Translations under genes and position numbers: made by a program
Shown: positions 260-24,196 of the stretch, in pieces
How positions within the stretch are numbered: position 1 is the first letter of the stretch
How the letters are laid out: every line of letters starts with the position of its first letter
The notes under the pieces: generated by a model
What the model was told of the DNA's origin: nothing
Databases searched by the model: none
What the model saw: only the letters and a program-made list of their open reading frames with translations
NCBI GenBank assembly: GCA_030431975.1
Contig: JAUIHP010000032.1
Location: forward strand, 1 to 51,704
Reading direction: 5' to 3'
Length of the DNA: 51,704 nt
From: a bacterium
Lineage (GTDB): Bacteria; Eisenbacteria; RBG-16-71-46; CAIMUX01

Positions 260-1213
260 TTACGCGGTGTTCCCGCGAGGTGGCCGCGATTCGCGGTACG
301 ACCACGATGATGCCTCAGGCTCCCACGTCGCTTCCGGCTGAAGGCCTCGTTCCAACTCTTCGAGAATGGGAAGGAGGAAGGCTGCCAGGATATCTGCGAA
401 CTCGCTGCTTGGAAGATCCGGTACCTGCAGCCCTGACCGTCGCGCGAATGCTCGGACCTGAGCCGGTCGCGATGGGTTGTTCCAGTACTCCGGCGTGAGT
501 CCGATTGGAGGTTCGGACGGAATCGGTGTGCCGCGTCGCTGAAACGTCCTCAGCACGGCTTCGGCGAGAGTCCTTCGCTCGAACCGGAACGTACAGGCGA
601 GGTGGTGCAGGTCGAAGAAGTCTTTGATCCGGCTGTTGCGATCGCCGAGCACGACCATGGCCTCGAGCTTCTCCGCGACGACAGCTTCCTTCGGATAGCT
701 GAGCACCTCAGGTCTCGGGAAGTCGAGCAGTGTTGGGTAAGACTCCGAGGAGGGTGGGGGCCAGACTGAGTCACCGATGCCGATGTCGATCTGGAGGATA
801 AGCCTCGCCGTTCCGCAGCGCGCAGGCAGACTTACTCGGACACCCGCGTACTCGTCTTCGGGTCGGATCGGATCCAGGCTGGTCCCGGCGGGATCGAAGA
901 TGACGCCATCGGGTTCGACTGAAGCGGTGCAGATGGCTTCGACATCGCGCCGGACGCTATCGTGCGAGCTGTCGCCCCGGCGTAGCAGATCCAGGTCCCG
1001 AGTGGCTCGGTACGGCTGTTCGGCCCAGACTCGAAGAAGGAGAGCTCCCTTGAGCACGAACCGATCGCTGAGGGGAGTGGATCCCACACGAAAGAGGAAC
1101 CGCTCGAGGCAGTAGAGCGTCAGGAGGGTCTGGAAATCCTCTCCGCTCGAACGGGCTCGGTTTAGCAGTCGGGCCGTGACGGAAGCACCGAGATCAGCGC
1201 CTTTCTTCGTCAC
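260..1213 (-). CDS. AbiEii-type nucleotidyltransferase toxin, type IV TA (copy 1)
   Basis: A 317-residue protein of the AbiEii/MenA nucleotidyltransferase toxin family. Family hallmarks are visible: FVLKGALLLR at 52-61, RATRDLDLL at 69-77 with the DxD metal-binding aspartates, EKLEAM near 181-186, and RIKDFFDL at 195-202. In the family, such enzymes modify tRNA or use NTPs to stop growth, and the cognate AbiEi protein neutralises them mainly by repressing transcription. The start codon overlaps the AbiEi stop (1210-1213, ATGA), the usual coupled arrangement. The length is typical. The 3' end abuts the broken recombinase, so the module probably sits at the edge of a mobile segment. The NTP used and the target cannot be read from sequence. 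Confidence 0.9.
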   Translation of the reverse strand: MTKKGADLGASVTARLLNRARSSGEDFQTLLTLYCLERFLFRVGSTPLSDRFVLKGALLLRVWAEQPYRATRDLDLLRRGDSSHDSVRRDVEAICTASVEPDGVIFDPAGTSLDPIRPEDEYAGVRVSLPARCGTARLILQIDIGIGDSVWPPPSSESYPTLLDFPRPEVLSYPKEAVVAEKLEAMVVLGDRNSRIKDFFDLHHLACTFRFERRTLAEAVLRTFQRRGTPIPSEPPIGLTPEYWNNPSRPAQVRAFARRSGLQVPDLPSSEFADILAAFLLPILEELERGLQPEATWEPEASSWSYRESRPPRGNTA

Positions 1214-4420: not shown

Positions 4421-7400
4421 CTACCGAAACGACACCCGATAGAAGATCGAGTAAACAATCGGCACAAACCAAAGTGTCAACACCGTCGCAAACGCCAGCC
4501 CGAAGATGATCGCCACCGCCATCGGCTCCCACATTGGCCCACCCGACACCCAGAGCGGAATCAACCCACCAATGGTCGTCGCCGTCGTCAGCAGAATCGG
4601 CCGCAACCTCTGCTGCGCCGAAGTCAGCACCGCGTCCGCCGGCTCCCGTCCGTTGTCTTCGATCTCGATGCGGATTCGGTCCAACAACACGATGGCATTG
4701 TTGATCACGATCCCGGCCAGCGAAATGACCCCAAGCAAGGTCATGAAGCCGAAGGGCGCTCCCGCAATGAGCAGCCCGGCCGTCACTCCGATCAGCCCGA
4801 GCGGAATGGTGAGAAACACGATCGCCGTCTGTCGCACGGAATTGAACTGCGAGATGAGCAGCAAAAGGATGATGAACCCGGCGATGGGTAGCTTGGCCCC
4901 GATCGACTGGTTGGCCTGCTGCGAACTTTCGATCTCGCCTCCCAACTCGTAGGAGTAACCGCGAGGCCAGGACTCGGAGTCCTTTTCCAACCACGGAATG
5001 AGTTCTGCATTCACGTCCATGGCGTTGACGCCGCGCACAAGATCGCTCTCCACGGTCACGGTGCGGAGGCGATGCCGGCGCAGGATCTTGGAGGCCTCCC
5101 ACGCGACCTCCACCTCGGCAATCTGGTCGAGCGGGACGGAGGCTCCAGTGGATTGCACGAAGATGTTCAGGCTCTCCAGTTTTCCCAGATCCTGCCGGTC
5201 GGCGGCGACGGATCGAAGCACGATGGGGATGACCTCGTCTCCTTCCCGGAACTCCGTCGTCGCGATGCCGGTCAGTCCGGACTGGAGCGAGATGGCGACG
5301 TCCTCGCTGGTCACGCCCGCTCGCCGTGCCCGGGCTTGGTTGACGTCCACGCGGATCTTCTTCACGCGCGGTCCCCAGTTGTCCTCGATGTTGACCGTGG
5401 TCGTGAACTCGGCGAGCCGCGCCTTGACCCGGTCCACGAGTTCAAAAAGAGGCTCGGACTCCCGTCCGCTGATCCGTACCTGGATGGGCGACTCCACCGG
5501 GGGACCGAGTGCCTCGGCCTGGAAGTTGACGGTGAGTTCGGGGAAGTTCTGGAAGCAGTACTCGTCCAGTCGCGGGATCAACTCATTCAGGTAGTCACGG
5601 CTGGTGGCGGAGAAGATCATGGAAAGGTGCTCTGACCCCGCCTGGGCCGGATTGTAGGAGAGCCGGTAGCGCGGTCCGCCTCCCTGTCCCACGTAGGTTG
5701 TCCAGTCGATGAGTCCTTCTGCCCTCTCCTCACCGACCAGCTCTCCCTGTAGAAATGTCTCCAGTTCCGCAGCCACTTCGGCGGAACGATGGAGCGGAGT
5801 GCCGACGGGAAGGTCCAACTCGCCCAACATGCGCGGACTGTCCGACGAGGGAAAGAAGATCGCGGCCACGAAGCGCATCCCGAAGAGGGCCACGGCGAAG
5901 ATTCCGGCGATCGCGGCGAGGGAAAGCCAGCGTCCGCGTAGTCCGAAGAGAAGAAAAGACCGATAGCCCCGGTAGAAGCGGCTGTCGAAGCTCTCCTCAC
6001 TCTCCCGGACCTTCACCCGAATGAAGAGCATGCAGAGGAGCGGCATCATGGTCAGCGCCAATCCCCACGACGAGAGAAGTGCCATGGTCACGACCTTGAA
6101 TAGAGAGGCCGTGTATTCCCCTGTCTCCGACTCCGCCAGGAAGATGGGCAGGAACGCCGCCGAGGTGGTGAGCGACGAAGTCAAAAGCGGAATGCGAAGC
6201 TCGTTGGCCGAGTCTACGGCGGCTTCGAAGCGTTCCTTCCCCGCTGCGATCTGCACCATGATGCTTTCCGACATCACGATCGCGTTGTCGACCAGCATAC
6301 CGAGGGCGATGATGAGGGCGGCGATGGAGATCTGATCCAGCCCGATTCCGAAGACCTGCATGAGAAACAGAGTGAGCAGCATGGTCGTGGGAATGAGCGT
6401 TGCGACGACCAGCCCGGTGCGGGGGCCAAGCGAGACGAGCATGACCGCGAGAACGATCCCGATCGCCTGAAGTAGGTTGCCCACGAAGTCGTCGACCTGG
6501 TCGTCGACGAAGCGCGGCTGAAAAATGGGGAGTTCGAAATCGAGCCCGATCGGATAGTCCTGGCGCGCCTGCGCGACCACGGCCTCGACCTCCTGGCCGA
6601 GAAGACTGACGTTGCCGCCCTTGCGCATGGAAACGGAGAGGCCCAAACAGGGCGTGCCGATGTAGTGCATCGCTGAAGTGGGCGGATCGACGTAGCCCCG
6701 GCTGATGGTGGCGATGTCCTCCAGATAGACCAGCTCCGAGCGTCCGGGGATCTGGACAACGGTGCGTCGCAGTTCCTCGATGGACTCGAAGTTGCCCGAG
6801 GGTTCGAGCACGATCTCCTCGTCGCCCGTAATCACCGAACCGCCCGAGATGATGATGTTGCGGCTTTCGAGCAAACTCGTGAGCTGTCCAGGGGAGAGGC
6901 CGAGTTCAGAGAGGCGGGCGTTCGTGTACTCGATGAAGATGCGCTCTTCCTGGTCTCCATAGATGTCCACCTTGGCCACCTGGCTTTGGCGGAGGAGTTC
7001 ATCCCGAACTTCTTGCGCGACTTCATCCAGCTCGGCGTAATCGAAACCGTCGCCGGTGATGGTGAGCATGACCGGGTAGACGTCGCCGAACTCATCGTCC
7101 ACGAAGGGGCCGATGACGCCGTCGGGAAGGTCTCCGGAGGCCGCCTGCACCTTGCGCCGAAGGTCGTCCCAGATGGGGCGCATCTCTGAATAGCTGGCCA
7201 GGACGTTGACGAAGAGGAAGGAGGTTCCGGTCCGGCTCTCCGAGGCGATGAAGTCGACCTGCGGCATTTCCTGGATGCGCTTTTCCAGCTTGTCCGAAAC
7301 CAGAAGCTCGACGCGTTCCGGGCTCGCGCCTGGGAAGTACGTCCGGACCATGGCTGTTCTGATGGTGAAGCCGGGATCCTCGGCTCGGGGAAGGGACCGG

Positions 7401-7486
7401 TAGGATCCGTACCCGACCAGGCAGATCACGATGAGGGCAAAGAACGTGACGCGGTTGTTGCGAATCGCCGCCGCGGTCACGTTCAT
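4421..7486 (-). CDS. RND-family efflux permease (inner-membrane pump)
   Basis: A 1021-residue resistance-nodulation-division transporter of typical length. The first membrane helix is at about 12-30, a large periplasmic loop follows (35-335), helices TM2-6 lie at about 335-475, a second loop follows to about 830, and TM8-12 finish the protein. The pore start (PRAEDPGFTIRTAMVRTYFP) and GMLVDNAIVMSES at 397-408 match the family. At the proton-relay sites it has Asp400 followed by Asn401 where AcrB has two aspartates, and Asn929-Asn930 (GIVINNAIVLLD) where AcrB has a key lysine. This Asp-Asn/Asn-Asn pattern occurs in a distinct RND subgroup. It is last in a three-gene operon and overlaps the adaptor gene by 4 bp. 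The substrate is unknown. Confidence 0.93.
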   Translation of the reverse strand: MNVTAAAIRNNRVTFFALIVICLVGYGSYRSLPRAEDPGFTIRTAMVRTYFPGASPERVELLVSDKLEKRIQEMPQVDFIASESRTGTSFLFVNVLASYSEMRPIWDDLRRKVQAASGDLPDGVIGPFVDDEFGDVYPVMLTITGDGFDYAELDEVAQEVRDELLRQSQVAKVDIYGDQEERIFIEYTNARLSELGLSPGQLTSLLESRNIIISGGSVITGDEEIVLEPSGNFESIEELRRTVVQIPGRSELVYLEDIATISRGYVDPPTSAMHYIGTPCLGLSVSMRKGGNVSLLGQEVEAVVAQARQDYPIGLDFELPIFQPRFVDDQVDDFVGNLLQAIGIVLAVMLVSLGPRTGLVVATLIPTTMLLTLFLMQVFGIGLDQISIAALIIALGMLVDNAIVMSESIMVQIAAGKERFEAAVDSANELRIPLLTSSLTTSAAFLPIFLAESETGEYTASLFKVVTMALLSSWGLALTMMPLLCMLFIRVKVRESEESFDSRFYRGYRSFLLFGLRGRWLSLAAIAGIFAVALFGMRFVAAIFFPSSDSPRMLGELDLPVGTPLHRSAEVAAELETFLQGELVGEERAEGLIDWTTYVGQGGGPRYRLSYNPAQAGSEHLSMIFSATSRDYLNELIPRLDEYCFQNFPELTVNFQAEALGPPVESPIQVRISGRESEPLFELVDRVKARLAEFTTTVNIEDNWGPRVKKIRVDVNQARARRAGVTSEDVAISLQSGLTGIATTEFREGDEVIPIVLRSVAADRQDLGKLESLNIFVQSTGASVPLDQIAEVEVAWEASKILRRHRLRTVTVESDLVRGVNAMDVNAELIPWLEKDSESWPRGYSYELGGEIESSQQANQSIGAKLPIAGFIILLLLISQFNSVRQTAIVFLTIPLGLIGVTAGLLIAGAPFGFMTLLGVISLAGIVINNAIVLLDRIRIEIEDNGREPADAVLTSAQQRLRPILLTTATTIGGLIPLWVSGGPMWEPMAVAIIFGLAFATVLTLWFVPIVYSIFYRVSFR

Positions 7487-8631
7487 GAGTCGGTCTCTCC
7501 GGCCAGTCCGGGAACGCGGACTCTTTGGCCGTCCTCGAGGTGGTGAACGCCGGCGGTCACGAGGATGTCGCCGTCCGAGAGGCCGGTCACGATCTCCAGT
7601 CCGTCCGAATCGAGGTCGCCGGTCTCGACGGTGACCCGGCGAGCGACACCTTCTTCACTCTGGACGTCGCGAACGACAAAGACGAAACGCCCGCGCCGAT
7701 CCTCGCCGACAGCCACGGCCGGAACCACGATCCGGTTCTCACCTCCGGGGGCTTGGAAGGAGATGTCGACCTCGGCGGCCATGCCCGGCCGTACGTTCGA
7801 CTCCGCTTCACGCAGGCGAACAGTGACCGGGAAGGTCGTGGATGCGCCGGTGGGGGACACGCCCACTTCGGTGACCACGGCGTTGAAAGTGCGATTGGGA
7901 ACAGCGTCGAAGCGAACGCGGACTTCCGTACCGACGCGAATGAGGAAAATGAGGCTCTCCGAAACGGAGACTTCGACCTCCGGGAGATCACCGGAGGTAA
8001 GGATGCACACCGTCTGCCCGGCCTGCACGTTCTCGTTCTCTTCCGAAAGCACCGAGGCAATGGAACCCTCGACGGGAGCGGTCAGGCGCGCGTAGCCCAG
8101 TTGTCGGCGGGCCAGCTCGACGGCCTTCTCCGCGGAACGGACCGAGGCGGTGGCGGTTTCCGAGTTGGCGCGGGCGGCATCGAGGTCGCCGATGGCGGCA
8201 TGTCCGTTTTCGTAGAGTCCGCGCAACCGTTCGTAGTCCGCCTGAGCATTGCGACTGCGCGCCTGTTGGCTCCTTAGGGCCGCCTCCGCCTCTTCCTTTT
8301 GCAGACGCAGATCCCCTTCGTCGAGACGGGCCAGGAGTTGACCCGCCTGCACATTGTCACCGACCGAAACGGCGATGTTGTCGACCGTGCCCGCGACCTT
8401 GAAGCTCAGGCGCGACTCCAGCCCGGCCCGCGAAAGACCGCTGAAAGTTCGGACGCGACCGGATCCACCGGCCAGCACTTCGACGTAGCGGACCGGGCGA
8501 ACGACGTCCGTGGGAGCGGGGGCTTCGGAGTCGCCGCAGCCGGGGTTGAACAGGAAGAGAGCCGCGCAGAGTGTAGCGACGGCCGATGTCCGGCCTGTTC
8601 GATTGGAGCCGGCTGTCATGCGGAGTCTCAT
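7483..8631 (-). CDS. RND periplasmic adaptor (HlyD/MFP family) lipoprotein
   Basis: A 382-residue membrane fusion protein linking the RND pump to its outer-membrane channel. The ATG at 8631 is preferred because it overlaps the stop of the upstream gene (ATGA at 8628-8631); the frame is open 17 codons further. The signal sequence ends in LFLFNPGC, an imperfect lipobox, so Cys32 is probably lipidated. Then come a barrel-sandwich/lipoyl half (LSFKVAGTVDNIAVSVGDNV, then QAGQLLARLD), an alpha-hairpin coiled coil (LRLQKEEAEAALRSQQARSR to ELARRQLGYA), the second lipoyl half (TAPVEGSIASVLSEENENVQ), a beta-barrel and a membrane-proximal domain ending DGQRVRVPG. It sits between the fused TolC gene and the pump, in the same operon. 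Confidence 0.92.
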   Translation of the reverse strand: MRLRMTAGSNRTGRTSAVATLCAALFLFNPGCGDSEAPAPTDVVRPVRYVEVLAGGSGRVRTFSGLSRAGLESRLSFKVAGTVDNIAVSVGDNVQAGQLLARLDEGDLRLQKEEAEAALRSQQARSRNAQADYERLRGLYENGHAAIGDLDAARANSETATASVRSAEKAVELARRQLGYARLTAPVEGSIASVLSEENENVQAGQTVCILTSGDLPEVEVSVSESLIFLIRVGTEVRVRFDAVPNRTFNAVVTEVGVSPTGASTTFPVTVRLREAESNVRPGMAAEVDISFQAPGGENRIVVPAVAVGEDRRGRFVFVVRDVQSEEGVARRVTVETGDLDSDGLEIVTGLSDGDILVTAGVHHLEDGQRVRVPGLAGETDS

Positions 8632-11069
8632 CGATCCTCCTCTTCTGCTTCTTCGAAGTAGGCTTCGAGACTTTGGAACCATGCGATTCGTTCGGCCGGC
8701 GGCGCGAGGAACGTGAAGGCGCCGAGAGCCCGCTCGACTTCGAAGAGGTCGAGCATAAAGTCGTGGATGGCGTCAGCCGCGGCCTGCTCCGCGTTCCGCG
8801 CCGCCGTTTGGGCATCGAGCAGGTCGATGATCCGCACCGAGCCTCTCGAGTAGGCGTCCGTGACCAGCTCCAGGTTTTGGCGGGCCGCCTCGGCCGACTG
8901 CGCCGTGAGACCGATGGCGGCGTAGGATGCCCCGGCGAGATGCGTGGTGGACCGGATGAACTGCTCGACGCGTTCGGCCGTGGCCACGCGGCGGCGGCGG
9001 AGCTCGTCCAGTTCCATTCGCGCCTGGGAGAGGGTTGCGTTTCGCTCCCCGCCTTCGAAGAGAGGCAGGGAAAGGTCGAGAGAGATACTCCAGTCAGTAT
9101 CGTCCGCCGGACTCAGCTCGGCCAGATCCGCACCCGTCCCACCCGTGCCGAGTTCCTGCGCGACTTCCCCGCGAAGCGCGAGAGTCGGCGAATAAAACCG
9201 ACGAGAGGACGACGACACGAAACGTTCCTGCGCTTCGATGGCCGCATCCAGGGCGGCAAGCTCCGGCGAGTTTTCCAGTGCCTGCTCCGTGAGGTAGCGG
9301 CGCATGACGCGGAAACTCCACGGGTCGTCGATGTAGCGATCGAGCTGGCCATCGACTGCGGGCAGGGCCGGGTCACTGAGGCCCACCTCCTGTGTGGAGA
9401 AGGACTCCTCCAGCGGGCGATTCAGGATTCGGTTGAGTTCGATCTCGGCCACGTTGCGTTGCGAGTTGGCGCGAATGGCCTCGCGCTTGCCCGAGGCGAG
9501 CTCACTCTCCCAGCGATAGACCTCCGCGGGGCCCGACACGCCGATGGATTCGCGGATTCGTGCCAGCTCCAGGTTGGAGCGGGTCAAGCGTAGGTCATCG
9601 CGCCGGATTCGTTCGAGAGTCTGGGCGCGAAGGACGCCGACATAGGCCGTGGCGGCATCGAGGGCCACATCCAGGCGCAGCGCGGTTTCCTCGACTTCCA
9701 AGGCGAGTTGCAGTTTCTTCTGGATGTCGACGTTCGCCCTGGCGGCCTCCGACCAGAGCAGTTGGGTCAGGGTCAGACGACCGGTCAGAGTCCGCTCCAC
9801 TGCCGCTCCCATACTGGCCCCGGCGCGATCGTCATCGATCATGACTCCGGTGAGAGCCGCATCCAGTTGGGGAAGTAGACGCGATCCGGCGATCCCGATT
9901 TCTCTATCCCCGGCCTCGACCTCGAATCGCTTGGCCTGCAGGTCGGCATTGGAGGCAAGGGCCTGTTCCAGCGCATTCAGGAGGGAGAGCTCCCGGAGCG
10001 GGGGCGACGACGACGGATTCACGATCACCGCTTCGGTCAGCACTTCAAAGGTCGGTCGTAGCCGGATGGCGCGGGCTGTCGACATGTTGAGGCTCAGCTC
10101 TTCGTTGCGACTGATGGCCACCGGAATCTCCGCGGCCGGTTCGCCGAGGAGGATCCTCTGCACGTTGAGCGCAACACGTCGGGCGTAGCGGGGAAAGATC
10201 GAGTCCGCGGTCAGCCCCGCAAGCACACCCCGTTCCACATCCTCCCGGCCCAGGTAGCTGAAGGACGGAAGACGACGGTCGATCAGGCCTTGGATGAGAA
10301 TGTCGAACTCGCCCGGTCTCAGCTGGATGAGGGGAGCGATGTAGACCGCTTCGACGTCGTCGGGAATGCGGGCCAGAGCCACTTCCGCGCTTTCGCCGAC
10401 CTCGATGACCTCGCTTTCGATCCCGATCAAAGCAAGCTGTGACCTTGTCTGCTCATGCAGCCCGTCCACGGCGCGAAGCATGGGTCCGTTGGCCAGGAAC
10501 GCGAGCTTGGTAAAGGGCGACACGGCCTGGAACGCGCCCAGGTCTTCGCGGAAAGTGTCCACCGACTCCAGGTAGGAGAGATTGCGCACGCCGCTCGTCC
10601 CCCGCTGCGTTCGCGGGATGCCCTGCGTTTCCGACTCGAGAACGAACGACGCGATGACGGGTTTGCGTAGGTTGGACCTCCGTGCCGCATCCATGGAGGC
10701 CAACGGGCCGACCGCGATGATCAGGTCGATCTGCGGGTCGAAGAGAAGTCGGTCGATCTCTGCGCGGATGGTGGCCGGATCGTGGTTGCCCGAGATCGAC
10801 TTCCGAAAGGTGATGTCGAAGTCGGACTCGTTGACGCGCGTGATCTCCTCCTCGAAGAGCTGCACGACCTCATCGTTCCGCTCCCAGGGACCGTCCAGGA
10901 CCATTCCAATGGTTACGTCGGAGCGGTCTTGAGCCTGCGCCGGGCCCGCAACGGCCGCCAGAGAAAACAGGAGGTAGAGAGTTGCCGCGATGCGGGAAAC
11001 GAGCGTGACCCGCCGAGCGATACCTCGGTTTCGCAAGAGAGGAACCGAAGGGGTGAGGAAGTTCTCCAT
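8628..11069 (-). CDS. Fusion of ABC-type substrate-binding domain and TolC-family outer-membrane channel
   Basis: An 813-residue protein from the ATG at 11069, which has GGGAG upstream and is followed by a signal peptide (MENFLTPSVP..., cleavage after about AQAQ, residue 47). Residues about 50-345 look like the ABC_sub_bind fold (PF04392 type): VTIGMVLDGPWERN, DPQIDLIIAVGPLASM, RKPVIASFV, KLAFLANGPM, YLGREDVERGVLAGLTAD and ARRVALNVQRILLGEPA. Residues about 360-800 are a TolC-type channel in two repeats: LLNALEQALASNADLQAKR and LPQLDAALTG first, then ALENSPELAALDAAIEAQER, SISLDLSLPLFEGGERNA and RIIDLLDAQTAARNAEQA. It is first in the efflux operon. Such a channel would carry its own periplasmic ligand-sensing or ligand-loading domain. 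The single frame is continuous and no frameshift is evident. Confidence 0.88.
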   Translation of the reverse strand: MENFLTPSVPLLRNRGIARRVTLVSRIAATLYLLFSLAAVAGPAQAQDRSDVTIGMVLDGPWERNDEVVQLFEEEITRVNESDFDITFRKSISGNHDPATIRAEIDRLLFDPQIDLIIAVGPLASMDAARRSNLRKPVIASFVLESETQGIPRTQRGTSGVRNLSYLESVDTFREDLGAFQAVSPFTKLAFLANGPMLRAVDGLHEQTRSQLALIGIESEVIEVGESAEVALARIPDDVEAVYIAPLIQLRPGEFDILIQGLIDRRLPSFSYLGREDVERGVLAGLTADSIFPRYARRVALNVQRILLGEPAAEIPVAISRNEELSLNMSTARAIRLRPTFEVLTEAVIVNPSSSPPLRELSLLNALEQALASNADLQAKRFEVEAGDREIGIAGSRLLPQLDAALTGVMIDDDRAGASMGAAVERTLTGRLTLTQLLWSEAARANVDIQKKLQLALEVEETALRLDVALDAATAYVGVLRAQTLERIRRDDLRLTRSNLELARIRESIGVSGPAEVYRWESELASGKREAIRANSQRNVAEIELNRILNRPLEESFSTQEVGLSDPALPAVDGQLDRYIDDPWSFRVMRRYLTEQALENSPELAALDAAIEAQERFVSSSSRRFYSPTLALRGEVAQELGTGGTGADLAELSPADDTDWSISLDLSLPLFEGGERNATLSQARMELDELRRRRVATAERVEQFIRSTTHLAGASYAAIGLTAQSAEAARQNLELVTDAYSRGSVRIIDLLDAQTAARNAEQAAADAIHDFMLDLFEVERALGAFTFLAPPAERIAWFQSLEAYFEEAEEEDR

Positions 11070-11355
11070 GCCTATCGGCTCCCGTCCTGATTGGACAAAA
11101 CCAAAGTGCGGAGGCCAGCCCGGGGCGGAGGCCCGAGGAGCCGCAGAGTCGACCCCCAAGAAACCGGTGGGAGGGTACACGAGCGCAGGCAGGAGCACCA
11201 GTTTCGAAGGTGTTGGTGCCGTGCCCAACTGTTGCGGGAACATCGTAGAGCCGAATGGGCCGAAGATCCGGTTTTTCTCCAGATAGGCTGTCGCGCTTTG
11301 CCTCGTCACGTCGCCTTCTGCGTAAGACAAAGATCAGCCCACTCGGAGGACTTCC
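11070..11355. other. Divergent intergenic region between efflux operon and S8 peptidase gene
   Basis: About 286 bp serve two divergent genes, so both promoters should lie here. GGAGG at 11346-11350 is the ribosome site for the peptidase gene. I see no regulator gene, clear palindrome or convincing -35/-10 pair. Confidence 0.4.
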
Positions 11356-14820: not shown

Positions 14821-15663
14821 CTACGACCTGGTGATCTGGTCCCGGCCGTCGTCGGCACTCTTCCAGGGATCGCCGGGCAGCTTCGCGACGACCTGCTCGA
14901 GGACGACCTGTATGGCGTCTTCGAAGTCCCACGGAATCGTCGGTCCGAGCAACGCCTCGATGTCGTCGCGGAAGTCCGAGTCGCTCGATTTCTCGTCGAG
15001 GTTCGCCTCGAATTGAGCCCTGGTGACGTTGTGCCCGCCTTCGGTCATGTACCGATCGAAGCACTTCAGCAGAGCCGCAGGATCGATGTCGCCGCAGTGG
15101 AGCGCGTAGGCCATATCGAAGAGGTCGCGCCCCTTCTTGCGCTGGTATAGCGCGCGGAGTTTCGTTCCCAGCAGCTCGTGGACATCGAAGGTGGTGACGT
15201 CGGCCGTGCCAGTGAACCACTGCCCGCTAACGGTGAACGGCACGCGCGCGAGGCCAAGCTCGGTGAAGTGCTCTCGGGTGTTGATCTCGATCTTCAGCTT
15301 CATCCTTAGGGCCGGTGAGTCCTCCGACTCGAAGCGGTACACGAGGTTGACGCGGCCCTCCTTGAACTTGCGCTGCGGCGTCCCGAGCCACGGGTCGAGC
15401 GCGCCTCGGATGATGTCGAGCGTCTCGCCGATCGGTTTCGACTCGACCTGGACGAGGTCGATGTCCTCCGAGTATCGAGCTGGTGGAAGTAGGTGGAGCT
15501 TGTAGAGCGCGGTCCCTCCGCGAAACGCGAGCCGCTCTCGCAGATCGGGGACGGAGTACATGTCGACCAGCGCCCGACTGATGACGAGGTCTTGTTCGAC
15601 CTGCGCGTCGATGCGCCAGGGCGCGTGCTGGCGCCACTCGTTGATGAAGGCTTTTGGGATCAC
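14821..15663 (-). CDS. AbiEii-type nucleotidyltransferase toxin (copy 2)
   Basis: A 280-residue protein of the AbiEii toxin family. The GTG at 15661-15663 is chosen because it overlaps the antitoxin stop (15660-15663) as in copy 1, and the family N-terminus starts there (IPKAFINEWRQHAPW). Motifs: AFRGGTALYKL at about 46-56, YSEDIDLVQ at 64-72 with the DxD pair, LLGTKLRALYQRKKGRDLFD at 164-183. By family knowledge, toxicity comes from the nucleotidyltransferase activity and the AbiEi partner counters it. It is clearly different in sequence from copy 1 at 260-1213, so the two modules were probably acquired separately. It converges tail to tail with the S8 peptidase gene, 15 bp apart. Confidence 0.9.
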   Translation of the reverse strand: MIPKAFINEWRQHAPWRIDAQVEQDLVISRALVDMYSVPDLRERLAFRGGTALYKLHLLPPARYSEDIDLVQVESKPIGETLDIIRGALDPWLGTPQRKFKEGRVNLVYRFESEDSPALRMKLKIEINTREHFTELGLARVPFTVSGQWFTGTADVTTFDVHELLGTKLRALYQRKKGRDLFDMAYALHCGDIDPAALLKCFDRYMTEGGHNVTRAQFEANLDEKSSDSDFRDDIEALLGPTIPWDFEDAIQVVLEQVVAKLPGDPWKSADDGRDQITRS

Positions 15664-16442
15664 TCGTCCGGCTCCACGTCGACGTTCACGATGACCTTCC
15701 ACTTGCTGTCGCGAGAAGCCCCCGCGACATCTTCGGAGCGACGTAGCGGGATGTAGCTGGTCGCCTTCCTGGCTACGAGAGGCTCGATGGCGCCCGCGAG
15801 ACCCTGCGCTTCGACGAACTCCAACAGGTACCCCAACCGCTGTGACCACCCAATGGGGCAGAGCGCGGCGGCATCGACAAGCTCGTCGCCGTCCATCTCC
15901 TCGGTGAGCTCTGCAAGAACTGTGGCGACGTTGTTGAGTCCCCCCGCGTACTGCGGGTAGCCGACCATCTCGAGCGCGGTCATCTCCGGCGTGGCGTACC
16001 TAACGTAGCCGCGCGGGGTGTTGAAGGTGGTCACCGGCATCTGCTCAAGGTCTCCGCGCGCTACGAAGAGCACACGGACCTGGCCACACTCCACCGGCGG
16101 CCGGTTCCTCGGGACCATGACCTGCAGGGACTGTGGCCGCTGGTGCGCGGCGCCGTGGCGCTCTGCTGCCGAAAGCAACGCGACGTAGTAGGGCTCGCCG
16201 AGGTACTCCATCAGCGGGTCGATGAAGTGCTCGGCGGGCAGGCACCCCATTCGTCGGTACTCGGGCGGGACCACGACGTGGAAGGAGCGCATCGGGCTCG
16301 CGATGCGTCCGTGCTTCTTGAGCCGCCGCAACTGCGCACGGACAGCGTCGTCGTTGCCTCCGATGGCCTCGATGGCGGCAGAGGTCGTGAAGTGATACCT
16401 CCCACTCGCTGCCAGGGAGTCGATGTACTGCTCCGCTCGCAT
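15660..16442 (-). CDS. AbiEi-type antitoxin / autorepressor (copy 2)
   Basis: A 260-residue AbiEi-family antitoxin. The N-terminal ~55 residues form a winged helix (TTSAAIEAIGGNDDAVRAQL, then RRLKKHGRIASPMRSFHVVV). The middle has YYVALLSAAERHGAAHQRP followed by QSLQVMVP, and ATPEMTALEMVGYPQYAGGL is typical of the family. The ATG at 16440-16442 has AGGAG about 11 bp upstream; that ribosome site directly abuts one of the operator-like repeats. It is longer than copy 1 (212 residues). The gene overlaps the toxin gene by 4 bp. Its promoter region holds four ordered repeats (16447-16560), strongly suggesting autorepression. Confidence 0.88.
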   Translation of the reverse strand: MRAEQYIDSLAASGRYHFTTSAAIEAIGGNDDAVRAQLRRLKKHGRIASPMRSFHVVVPPEYRRMGCLPAEHFIDPLMEYLGEPYYVALLSAAERHGAAHQRPQSLQVMVPRNRPPVECGQVRVLFVARGDLEQMPVTTFNTPRGYVRYATPEMTALEMVGYPQYAGGLNNVATVLAELTEEMDGDELVDAAALCPIGWSQRLGYLLEFVEAQGLAGAIEPLVARKATSYIPLRRSEDVAGASRDSKWKVIVNVDVEPDE

Positions 16443-20917: not shown

Positions 20918-23900
20918 CTACGACGACCTGCCGACAAGCTCTTCTGCTTCAGGCAGGGTGAGACCCCTGCCCTCAACCACGAGCCGCTCGGTCTCCTCAT
21001 CCCCGAGCGCCGCAGAGACACTCGTACGAACCTCCGCCTCGAGACCCGGGAATCGGTGGTCCCAGAACCCGTCCCCCTCTTCCTTCAGCTGCTGTGCTAG
21101 CCCAAGCAAGAGACCGCCCCTTCGATGGTCTCCCGACATCGTGGCCCAACGTGCGAGCTGGATGGCCGTGCGACGTGCGTCGCCGCGACTCCCGACCTCC
21201 GACCAAATGTCCAGCGCATCGCCCAGGTGCTTGCCGGCTGCCTCCATACGACCGAGGTTCAACTCGATCTCGGAGAGTCGAGTCAGCTGCTCTGCCTTCC
21301 GGGTTCCGAATCCGGCTTCGCCGAAGAGTTCCGCGGACTCCGCCCGATAGAGGATTGCGTTCTCGAACTCTTCGAGGTTCTCGGCGGCGCCGGCCAGAAG
21401 GTCGAGGGCCAATGCCGTTCCCCACTTGTCGCCGAGCTTGCGCTTGATGGCGATGCACTCCTCGATCGGAGCTTTCGAAGACGCAAAGTCTTCCCGGTTC
21501 TGGCGACTGAAACCAACATTGTGAAGCAGCGTCGCGATCTGGGACTGGGTGGCCTTGTCGCGGTAAACGACCAGCGCCTCGTCATAGAGCCGGGCGGCTT
21601 CGTCTGCTTCGCCGAGCGCACTGAGAGTGTTGGCCAGATTCGCCTGGGCTCGGGCAATGTCCATCTCCGTTCCCACCTCGAGCCAGGCCTGCAAGGAAGC
21701 TTCACGGTATGTGCGCGCATCGTCGCGTTGCCAAAGGTGCGTCGAACAGACCGCAGCGGCTTCGAGTGCGGTGGCGCGATCGACGCTCGCTTTCTGTCCA
21801 CCGGGATGGGCGAGCACGCGTTTCGTAAGCTCGAGCCCATCCTCGCGGCGATGCTTGGCCCACCAGTAGATGTCCAGGTCGCCAACCATCCGCAGCCCGT
21901 CTTTCGCTCCCTCGTCGTCGGCAAGAGCGAACTCGATGGCGGCACGGACATTCTCGTGGTCCGCGGCGATGCGGTCGTGCCATTGCCGCTGCTCCGCCGT
22001 CCGCTCTTTCTCGCGCGACTGTCGAACCAAGTCGGCAAAGTAACCCCGGTGCTTGCGGCGAGTGATCGTTGCTTCGCCCTCGTTCTCCAGCTGCTCCTTT
22101 GCATACTCGCGAACCGACTCATACATGCGGTAGCGCGTGGTGAGATGAGACTCGATGGGTTTGCGGTCCCGAAAGACGAACGACCTCTCGAGGAGATTGG
22201 TGAACAAGTCGAGCACTTCCCACTCCTCGATGTTCACATCCGCACAGACTGCTTCCGCGGCTTCCAGCGTCCAACCACCGGCGAAGGCGGAGAGACGACG
22301 GAGAAGGACTCGCTCGTTCGTCTCCAGAAGTTCGTAGCTCCAGTCGATGAGCGCACGAAGCGTGCGGTGTCGCGGCGACGCGGTCTTCGCGCCGCGATTG
22401 AGGATCTTGAAGCGAGCGTCGATCCGATTCTTCAGATCCTCAGGAGGGAAGACGCTGGTCCGGGCGGCCGCCAGCTCGATTGCGAGCGGTAGCCCATCGA
22501 GGCGACGACAGATCTCTCCGACCGCCGGTGCGTTCTCCTGTGTCAGCTCGAAGTCCGGGTCGACGGCCTGCGCCCGGTCGGCGAAGAGGACAACGGCCGG
22601 ATTGGTTTGAATCTCGGCAACGGATTGTCCCTCGGCCGGGGTCGGTAGCGGAACCAGGGGAAAGAGCGACTCGCCGGCGACGCCCAGCGGGACCTGGCTC
22701 GTTGTCAGGATCCGGAGATTGGGGCTCGTACCTATCTCCGCGACGAAACTCCGACATGCATCGAGAAGGTGTTCTGCATTGTCGAGTACCAGAAGCATCG
22801 ACCGGGTACCGAGTGAGGAACGGATCGCGTCGAGTGTCGCCTGACCGGCGGCCGTCTCGACCTTGAGCACACTGGCGACCGTCGCTTCGATCTGCGAGGG
22901 CTCGGAGATTCCTGCCAGCTCGACGAACCAGGCGCCGTCGGGGTAGCGGTTGAGAACCGAGGACGCGAGTTCGAGAGCGATCCGCGTTTTGCCGCAGCCC
23001 CCGGGACCGACAACGGTCACGATGCGTTCGGACTCGAGCAGATCCTCGAGCTGGGCTCGCTCCTCATCCCGACCGAAGAAGCGGGTCAGGGCTCGCGGAA
23101 TGTTGTGCGCGACCTTCGCCTTCGGGGCCGGCGTCTCTCGGGACATACCGGCGTCTTGTGAAGCCTGAATGCTGTCGATGGCCTGCCGGACTTCGGCCAT
23201 GGAACTGATGCGCCGCTCCCGGTCCTTCTCCAGGCAGCCCGCCAGCAGAGCTCGAAGCGGTTCGGGAATCCGGTCCGCGTATTCGTCCCACCGCGGCTCC
23301 TGATCGAGGGTGGCCGACATCGTCTCCGCCGTCGAGGTCTGCATGAACGGCGAACGACCGGCCAGCGCTGCAAACAGAGTGCAGCCGAGAGCCCAGACGT
23401 CGGATTGAACGTCCGAGTGTTCTCCCCGCAGCTGCTCCGGGCTCATGTACCCGGGGGTTCCCGTGATCAGACCTTGGAGCGTCTCTTCGGATTTCACATG
23501 CAGCGACTTCGCGATGCCGAAGTCAAGAACCTTGGCCTGTCCCTCCGGAGTGATCTTGATGTTCTGCGGTTTGAGGTCGCGGTGGATGACACCCCGTTTG
23601 TGTGCGCTCTCCAGCGCCGATGCGACCTGACGTCCAATGGAGAGGGTTCTCTCCACGCTCCAGACCGTGTCGACGATCTGTTCGGCCATCGTCTCGCCCG
23701 GTACGTACTCAAGTGTCAGGAAGTGCAGGTCGTCTGCTTCTTCGAGAGTGTGAATCATCGCGATGTGCGGATGAGTCATGGCGGCCAGGAGCCGGGCCTC
23801 CTGTTGAAACCGTCGCAGGCTATCGGGTCGGTCACAAAGCGAAGGCGGGAGGACCTTGATCGCGATCTGCCGCTGGAGCTGCGGATCTTCCGCCAGGTAG

Positions 23901-24196
23901 ACGATCCCCATGCCGCCCCGACCGAGTTCGCCTGAGACGGTGTAACGACCGATGGTGTCGGGAGGCGTCTCGTGCCCCAGTTCGTTCGAGCGCGAGTTTG
24001 CGGTCGGTGGTTTCACCGTCCCAAGAATCGTTTCGAGAAAGGTCTCTCCGTCGTCGAAGGCAAGAAGGTCTTCCACCTCCTTACGGAGTTCGGTGTCGTC
24101 ACCGCACTCCGCGTCGAGGTAGGCGGCTCGATCATCGGGAGCCATTTCCCAGATCGCGGCCAGGATCTCTTTGACCTTGTCGAAACGGCCCGACAA
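20918..24196 (-). CDS. Serine/threonine protein kinase fused to STAND-type ATPase and TPR region
   Basis: A 1092-residue cytoplasmic regulator. Residues 84-343 are a complete Hanks-type kinase: GRGGMG loop (92-97), Lys114, HRDLKPQN (205-212), DFG (225-227), then GTPGYMSPEQL. Residues about 370-640 are an NB-ARC/STAND ATPase: RFFGRDEERAQL, Walker A GPGGCGKT (397-404), Walker B MLLVLDNAEHL (467-475), LPLAIELAAARTSVF. A winged-helix-like stretch (RTLRALIDWSYELLETNERV) and TPR-like repeats (about 700-1030) complete it. The start is TTG at 24194-24196 with AGGAGG about 10 bp upstream. No transmembrane helix or DNA-binding output domain is seen. Family knowledge suggests a signal-gated switch in which TPRs sense a partner, the ATPase assembles and the kinase phosphorylates targets. 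Confidence 0.92.
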   Translation of the reverse strand: MSGRFDKVKEILAAIWEMAPDDRAAYLDAECGDDTELRKEVEDLLAFDDGETFLETILGTVKPPTANSRSNELGHETPPDTIGRYTVSGELGRGGMGIVYLAEDPQLQRQIAIKVLPPSLCDRPDSLRRFQQEARLLAAMTHPHIAMIHTLEEADDLHFLTLEYVPGETMAEQIVDTVWSVERTLSIGRQVASALESAHKRGVIHRDLKPQNIKITPEGQAKVLDFGIAKSLHVKSEETLQGLITGTPGYMSPEQLRGEHSDVQSDVWALGCTLFAALAGRSPFMQTSTAETMSATLDQEPRWDEYADRIPEPLRALLAGCLEKDRERRISSMAEVRQAIDSIQASQDAGMSRETPAPKAKVAHNIPRALTRFFGRDEERAQLEDLLESERIVTVVGPGGCGKTRIALELASSVLNRYPDGAWFVELAGISEPSQIEATVASVLKVETAAGQATLDAIRSSLGTRSMLLVLDNAEHLLDACRSFVAEIGTSPNLRILTTSQVPLGVAGESLFPLVPLPTPAEGQSVAEIQTNPAVVLFADRAQAVDPDFELTQENAPAVGEICRRLDGLPLAIELAAARTSVFPPEDLKNRIDARFKILNRGAKTASPRHRTLRALIDWSYELLETNERVLLRRLSAFAGGWTLEAAEAVCADVNIEEWEVLDLFTNLLERSFVFRDRKPIESHLTTRYRMYESVREYAKEQLENEGEATITRRKHRGYFADLVRQSREKERTAEQRQWHDRIAADHENVRAAIEFALADDEGAKDGLRMVGDLDIYWWAKHRREDGLELTKRVLAHPGGQKASVDRATALEAAAVCSTHLWQRDDARTYREASLQAWLEVGTEMDIARAQANLANTLSALGEADEAARLYDEALVVYRDKATQSQIATLLHNVGFSRQNREDFASSKAPIEECIAIKRKLGDKWGTALALDLLAGAAENLEEFENAILYRAESAELFGEAGFGTRKAEQLTRLSEIELNLGRMEAAGKHLGDALDIWSEVGSRGDARRTAIQLARWATMSGDHRRGGLLLGLAQQLKEEGDGFWDHRFPGLEAEVRTSVSAALGDEETERLVVEGRGLTLPEAEELVGRSS

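Follow-up and report, generated by a model that had tools for sequence, protein, structure and literature searches.

A TolC-type outer membrane channel with a substrate-binding-protein (SBP) fold at its N-terminus belongs to an old, sparse family found in many phyla and is not a one-off. The gene lies on the minus strand at 8628-11069 of the window, the whole 51,704-nucleotide stretch of an Eisenbacteria contig that was analyzed. Its product combines two known kinds of protein, an outer membrane factor (OMF) and an SBP fold, in an old and widespread arrangement that is, to our knowledge, undescribed. Sequence comparison and structure prediction establish how the domains are ordered, that the channel is complete, that the genes form an operon, and that the fusion is conserved as one unit. 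Our tentative preference is to regard the N-terminal domain (N-domain) as a binding-protein-derived collar of the channel, with its main job in the channel itself.

The fusion gene encodes one continuous protein of 813 amino acids. The initial annotation had proposed a single frame joining a signal peptide, an ABC_sub_bind-like domain and a full two-repeat TolC channel, and the translation, which starts MENFLTPS and runs without a stop, bears this out. The open frame continues upstream as far as a TTG at 11330, and the ATG at 11069 is the start that gives a signal peptide (...LLFSLAAVAGPAQAQ). As read off the translation, the predicted signal peptide comprises residues 1-47 (10929-11069), ends in PAQAQ, and lacks a lipobox. 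It is followed by an N-terminal class I (cluster B, TrpX-type) binding-protein domain (residues about 50-350; 10020-10922), a short linker of about 10 residues (351-360; 9990-10019), and a two-repeat TolC/OEP channel (residues about 361-790; 8700-9989), all on the minus strand.

The fusion gene is the first in an operon in which the channel is followed by a lipoprotein adaptor and then by an RND pump, with ATGA overlaps at both joints. The periplasmic adaptor (RND_mfp; TIGR01730, E 1.3e-69) occupies 7483-8631 and has a lipoprotein-type start (...LFNPGC), and the RND pump (PF00873, E 1.2e-150) occupies 4421-7486, both on the minus strand. At 8631-8628 the TGA of the channel gene (8630-8628) overlaps the ATG of the adaptor gene (8631-8629), and a GAGGAGG ribosome-binding site precedes it. 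Because of this overlap and this site, the adaptor start is placed at 8631, and the adaptor gene is most likely 7483-8631 rather than the 7483-8682 of a mechanical ORF list. The second overlap, again of four bases, is at 7486-7483, where the RND gene starts with an ATG at 7486 and the stop codon of the adaptor gene ends at 7483; both 4-bp overlaps described initially are thus present. A convergent gene for a beta-helix protein lies downstream and a divergent gene for an S8 protease upstream, and therefore the operon consists of three genes. Importer permease and ATPase genes are absent from it. A sigma-70 scan, which is not informative for this lineage, found no promoter-like site upstream of the operon.

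By its sequence, the RND permease belongs to the MexK/TriC group. A phmmer search against solved structures gives 20yy (MexK) at 2e-185 and 6vej, which we take to be TriC, at 7e-180, with the next best at 3e-58. The MexJK and TriABC operons of Pseudomonas aeruginosa contain no OMF gene, and their pumps rely on OprM or OpmH. The operon in the window resembles them in having a pump closest to MexK and TriC and in the order of adaptor and pump, but its OMF is inside the operon and is fused. The region of the fusion operon lies between two type IV toxin-antitoxin loci, with AbiEii-type nucleotidyltransferase toxins at 14821-16442 (minus strand, E 4.9e-37), where an AbiEi antitoxin gene adjoins the toxin, and at 260-1213 (minus strand, E 2.7e-41). 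Elsewhere in the window, at 20918-24196 on the minus strand, a Ser/Thr kinase is joined to a STAND-type AAA ATPase and TPR repeats.

Sequence profiles and the predicted structure indicate that the N-domain is a real two-lobed class I SBP fold, homologous to the PF04392 type. A Pfam scan of the window protein finds OEP and ABC_sub_bind only, and DUF3828 is absent. OEP (PF02321) matches in two stretches (E 1.4e-40, 139.5 bits against a cutoff of 22), and two OEP repeats above the Pfam cutoff are also found in 38 of 38 relatives. ABC_sub_bind (PF04392) matches residues 100-347 with an E of 1.2e-4 and 21.9 bits, under its curated cutoff of 25.9; the proposed domain search therefore recovers the channel but detects the binding domain only below threshold. 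The PF04392 score of the Sulfuricurvum relative is 38.6 bits. When the window's own genome was searched with PF04392, there was no match under E 0.001, a result attributed to the limited reach of the family model rather than to true absence. A profile built from 38 fusion proteins matches the solved structures 3lkv (1.6e-11), 3lft (4e-8), 6hni (1e-6), and TolC (1e-33). No search pattern of practical use could be drawn from an alignment of six distant members, and a viral structure library gave no relevant match.

The predicted fold agrees with the profiles. The single-chain AF2 model spans residues 45-813 (mean pLDDT 88.4, pTM 0.77). Its residues 6-307 match 3lkv (VC1101) with a Z of 25.6 over 285 residues, followed by TrpX (Z 24.9) and CD0873 (Z 24.6), and its residues 317-745 correspond to residues 1-411 of TolC 1ek9 (Z 30.1, 396 residues, rmsd 2.5), with the TolC fold of beta-barrel strands and a long helical barrel. 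The modeled N-domain is nearer to the closed, ligand-bound form of CD0873 (Z 24.6) than to the open form (Z 20.6). In L073, the most divergent member modeled, both predicted folds are kept (Z 20.6 and 30.0) at 21% identity and with no PF04392 match. Family profiles and predicted fold together settle the identity of the N-domain despite the sub-threshold Pfam score, and the initial assignment of residues 50-345 to a substrate-binding family holds at both levels (3lkv at 1.6e-11; Z 25.6).

The fusion differs from the known members of both parent families. Like the TolC/OMF family (1ek9; PF02321), it has the full channel fold with two repeats and an operon with adaptor and pump, but an SBP-fold domain of about 300 residues stands before TolC residue 1, whereas in known OMFs the N-terminus is either bare or lipidated. 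The N-domain shares the class I two-lobed fold over the whole domain with the TrpX-type SBPs (PF04392), namely SP1069/TrpX (3lft, Trp), VC1101 (3lkv, Phe), and CD0873 (6hni, Tyr), at a Z of about 25 and about 15% identity. Those proteins are free-standing, whereas the N-domain is fused to a channel and its selectivity residues are replaced.

The distribution of the fusion shows that it is an old, sparse family present in many phyla. When the genomes of about 85,000 species were scanned, 51 related loci were found, spanning some 17 phyla. N-domain and channel are in one frame in 45 of these, some of them cut by contig ends or gaps, while five have no complete fusion frame and one (L049) is frameshifted. 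Carriers include Eisenbacteria, Kapaibacterium, KSB1, Aminicenantes, Calditrichota, Acidobacteriota, Nitrospirota, Planctomycetota, Gemmatimonadota, Latescibacterota, Zixibacteria, Hydrogenedentes, Riflebacteria, Methylomirabilota, Myxococcota, Thermodesulfobacteriota, and Gammaproteobacteria, and there are plasmid copies in Sulfuricurvum (Campylobacterota) and Cetobacterium (Fusobacteriota). The fusion is found in 9 of 385 genomes of a broad sample and, within the phylum to which the window belongs, in 3 of 47. G035 and G040 gave partial matches that were not confirmed as fusions: at E 1e-50 the family profile has no hit in either. Among the carriers observed, the smallest genome is complete at 1.6 Mb and has a fusion copy of 749 amino acids (L123:6353-8599) together with an adaptor gene.

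Some loci are damaged. In a Deltaproteobacteria MAG, a lone in-frame TAA (L067:7988-7990) interrupts a fusion gene that is otherwise complete, near the beginning of its channel part, through error or decay. At L071:6644-8679 the N-domain of the fusion is followed by the C-terminal end of an RND pump in another frame, with channel and adaptor missing; this is either a deletion remnant or a misassembly. These two loci and the frameshift in L049 could be taken as signs that two genes were joined by assembly or sequencing error, but they look like damaged copies of the fusion, and the same single frame occurs in 45 independent assemblies and on a complete plasmid. The initial annotation had named separate genes in close relatives, fused here by an assembly error, as one finding that would count against it. 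The relatives instead carry the same fusion and already refute an origin by assembly error, which we consider to have practically no chance of being correct.

One old fusion event fits the data best. The channel parts of the fused proteins form one clade against 15 unfused TolCs (SH-aLRT 99), and their N-domains form one clade against 28 free-standing SBPs (SH-aLRT 100). Across 39 proteins, N-domain distances and channel distances are correlated with an r of 0.83, compared with 0.36 for the best of 999 permutations. These sequence comparisons support a single origin but do not prove it, because the samples were picked by similarity. The N-domain might also be an evolutionary leftover that is tolerated and has no job, which would suit its patchy occurrence (9 of 385 genomes) and the loss of part of lobe 2 in Cetobacterium. 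However, its fold and reading frame are preserved across some 17 phyla, its mean pairwise identity across the family is 35% compared with 41% for the channel, and it diverges in step with the channel. A leftover is therefore very improbable.

Different exporters are found next to the fusion. Among loci with a readable frame and enough flank, an RND pump adjoins it in 30, nearly always with an adaptor, and the adaptor-RND genes come after the fusion or before it, as in L034, L053, L059, and L074. ABC exporter genes adjoin the fusion in two loci, L068 and Sulfuricurvum (HlyD, RbbA-type ATPase, permease), and nine loci have no exporter adjacent or within reach. Fusions without a nearby adaptor or pump gene (L057, L062, L069, L055, L047, L048, and L040) are most consistently those of Riflebacteria. 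The Sulfuricurvum operon is comparable to the ABC-type operon of the TolC-like protein HP1489 of Helicobacter pylori (PMC9570263), a candidate for a relative that has already been studied. With RND, ABC, or no exporter adjacent, the same N-domain serves different energizers. A MarR-type regulator lies directly upstream of the fusion in Desulfuromonadales. Just upstream of two other fusions are genes for an outer-membrane-like DUF6268 protein (L030:5955-6902) and a DUF3313 protein (L044:6190-6909). The plasmid fusions of Cetobacterium (L022:5446-7626 and L023:5152-7323) precede adaptor and RND genes.

Binding of aromatic amino acids in the known way appears unlikely from the aligned residues, while binding of something else is possible. 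VC1101, SP1069, and CD0873 hold Phe, Trp, and Tyr, respectively, and their preference is set by E263/A246/A268 together with Y279/Y262/Q284 (PMC6816091). In the alignment, the fusion family has other residues at these preference positions, and the TPxxQ, NPxE, and DN signatures common in the 28 free-standing SBPs are likewise replaced. The fusion family has a conserved set of its own (P0001 numbering): D59-G60, S125, position 145, Q149, N163, Y166, P246-L247, S269-F-S271-x-x-G274, and R297. Position 145 is D in most members and E in the window protein. By alignment, the conserved polar residues D59, S125, D145, Q149, Y166, S269, and S271 are near the cleft, and the probable side-chain positions 272, 273, and 287 vary, the first two mostly among hydrophobic residues. 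Both lobes and the hinge are retained in nearly all members. The Cetobacterium N-domains (two sequences) lack about 30 residues of lobe 2, yet their alignment extends across the entire domain (hhalign E 2.6e-7, 93% probability). Conservation is 0.383 in the cleft loops and 0.399 in the rest of the N-domain, a comparison not used as evidence because the 28 true SBPs give the same null result.

A role in ligand handling remains a serious contender, though a tentative one. The N-domain may bind a small molecule in the periplasm and hand it to the adaptor or pump or open the channel, and so act in sensing, loading, or gating. Its complete two-lobed fold, modeled nearer to a closed, ligand-bound structure, is consistent with this, and so are the polar residues that the alignment places near the cleft across phyla together with variation at 272, 273, and 287, as different ligands would require. 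The MarR-type regulator in Desulfuromonadales also points in this direction. A precedent by analogy is CusF, which as a separate protein hands Cu+ to CusB of CusCBA (review PMC8277102); like the proposed N-domain, CusF of CusCFBA is a binding protein of the periplasm and supplies an RND pump, but it is a small metal chaperone and a separate protein. Against ligand handling are the replaced selectivity positions and signatures and the occurrence of the same domain with both RND and ABC exporters. With these replacements, the variety of exporters (RND, ABC, or none), and the lobe 2 loss in Cetobacterium, the initial proposal of ligand sensing, loading, or gating is not supported in the form first put.

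A structural or docking role is slightly favored over ligand binding. On this reading, the gene encodes the outer membrane component of a tripartite pump resembling MexJK/TriABC, and a diverged TrpX-type binding-protein domain is permanently joined to the channel N-terminus. The trimer would then carry three SBP-fold domains as a collar around its equatorial belt in the mid-periplasm. This position is suggested because TolC mature residue 1 lies within about 10 residues of the N-domain end and TolC helix H1 belongs to the equatorial domain (OMF review PMC8277102). The lipoprotein YbjP docks on E. coli TolC at the equatorial domain (PMC13082787), and the collar would sit at about the same place. 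Its main job may be to steady the trimer, to assist passage through the peptidoglycan, or to dock the adaptor, and not to bind one fixed substrate; ligand response could be an extra in members with an intact cleft.

Several observations argue for the collar. The fusion is conserved in one frame (45 of 51 loci), its halves co-diverge (r 0.83), and the joint is short. Both folds (N-domain Z 25.6, channel Z 30) are kept even in L073, and the Cetobacterium N-domain retains its overall alignment despite the loss in lobe 2. The neighbors (RND in 30 loci, ABC in 2, none in 9) suggest a role that does not depend on a single substrate. Across the joint, two conserved alanines are 24 residues apart in 37 of 38 relatives, with varying sequence, and 6 of 44 equally variable windows are as constant in length; the fixed linker thus seems only modestly unusual. 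The retained lobes, hinge, and polar cleft residues count against the collar, since a mere collar would not need them. A further reading, which we think unlikely, is a ligand-responsive export duct of the outer membrane, in which three binding domains at the equatorial belt would close on ligand and gate or license a docked RND or ABC exporter. If this were true, the exit channel, and not the pump alone, would decide what leaves the cell.

The fusion family appears to be hidden in plain sight, because it has no family model and plain annotations. Scans found no model of the fusion in Pfam or NCBIfam, and genomes annotate it as 'TolC family protein' or 'ABC transporter substrate binding protein'. 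A literature search for PF04392 with PF02321, for COG2984 with COG1538, or for the fusion itself found nothing in open-licence papers, which is weak evidence; within those papers it agrees with the initial statement that no characterized protein has this architecture. Bucl8 of Burkholderia (PMC7682875) is likewise encoded in an efflux operon and is an OMF with an additional domain, but that domain is extracellular and collagen-like. YbjP (PMC13082787) has a globular periplasmic domain expected in the same equatorial zone as the N-domain, but it is a separate lipoprotein with a DUF3828 fold and no covalent joint. The fusion would show in covalent form what YbjP does non-covalently, a globular module at the equatorial belt of TolC. 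In tripartite exporters the exit channel is regarded as a passive and interchangeable duct, and an old duct that bears an SBP fold in many phyla challenges this view. The fusion family is a direct test case for whether the outer membrane part of an exporter can sense or recruit substrate.
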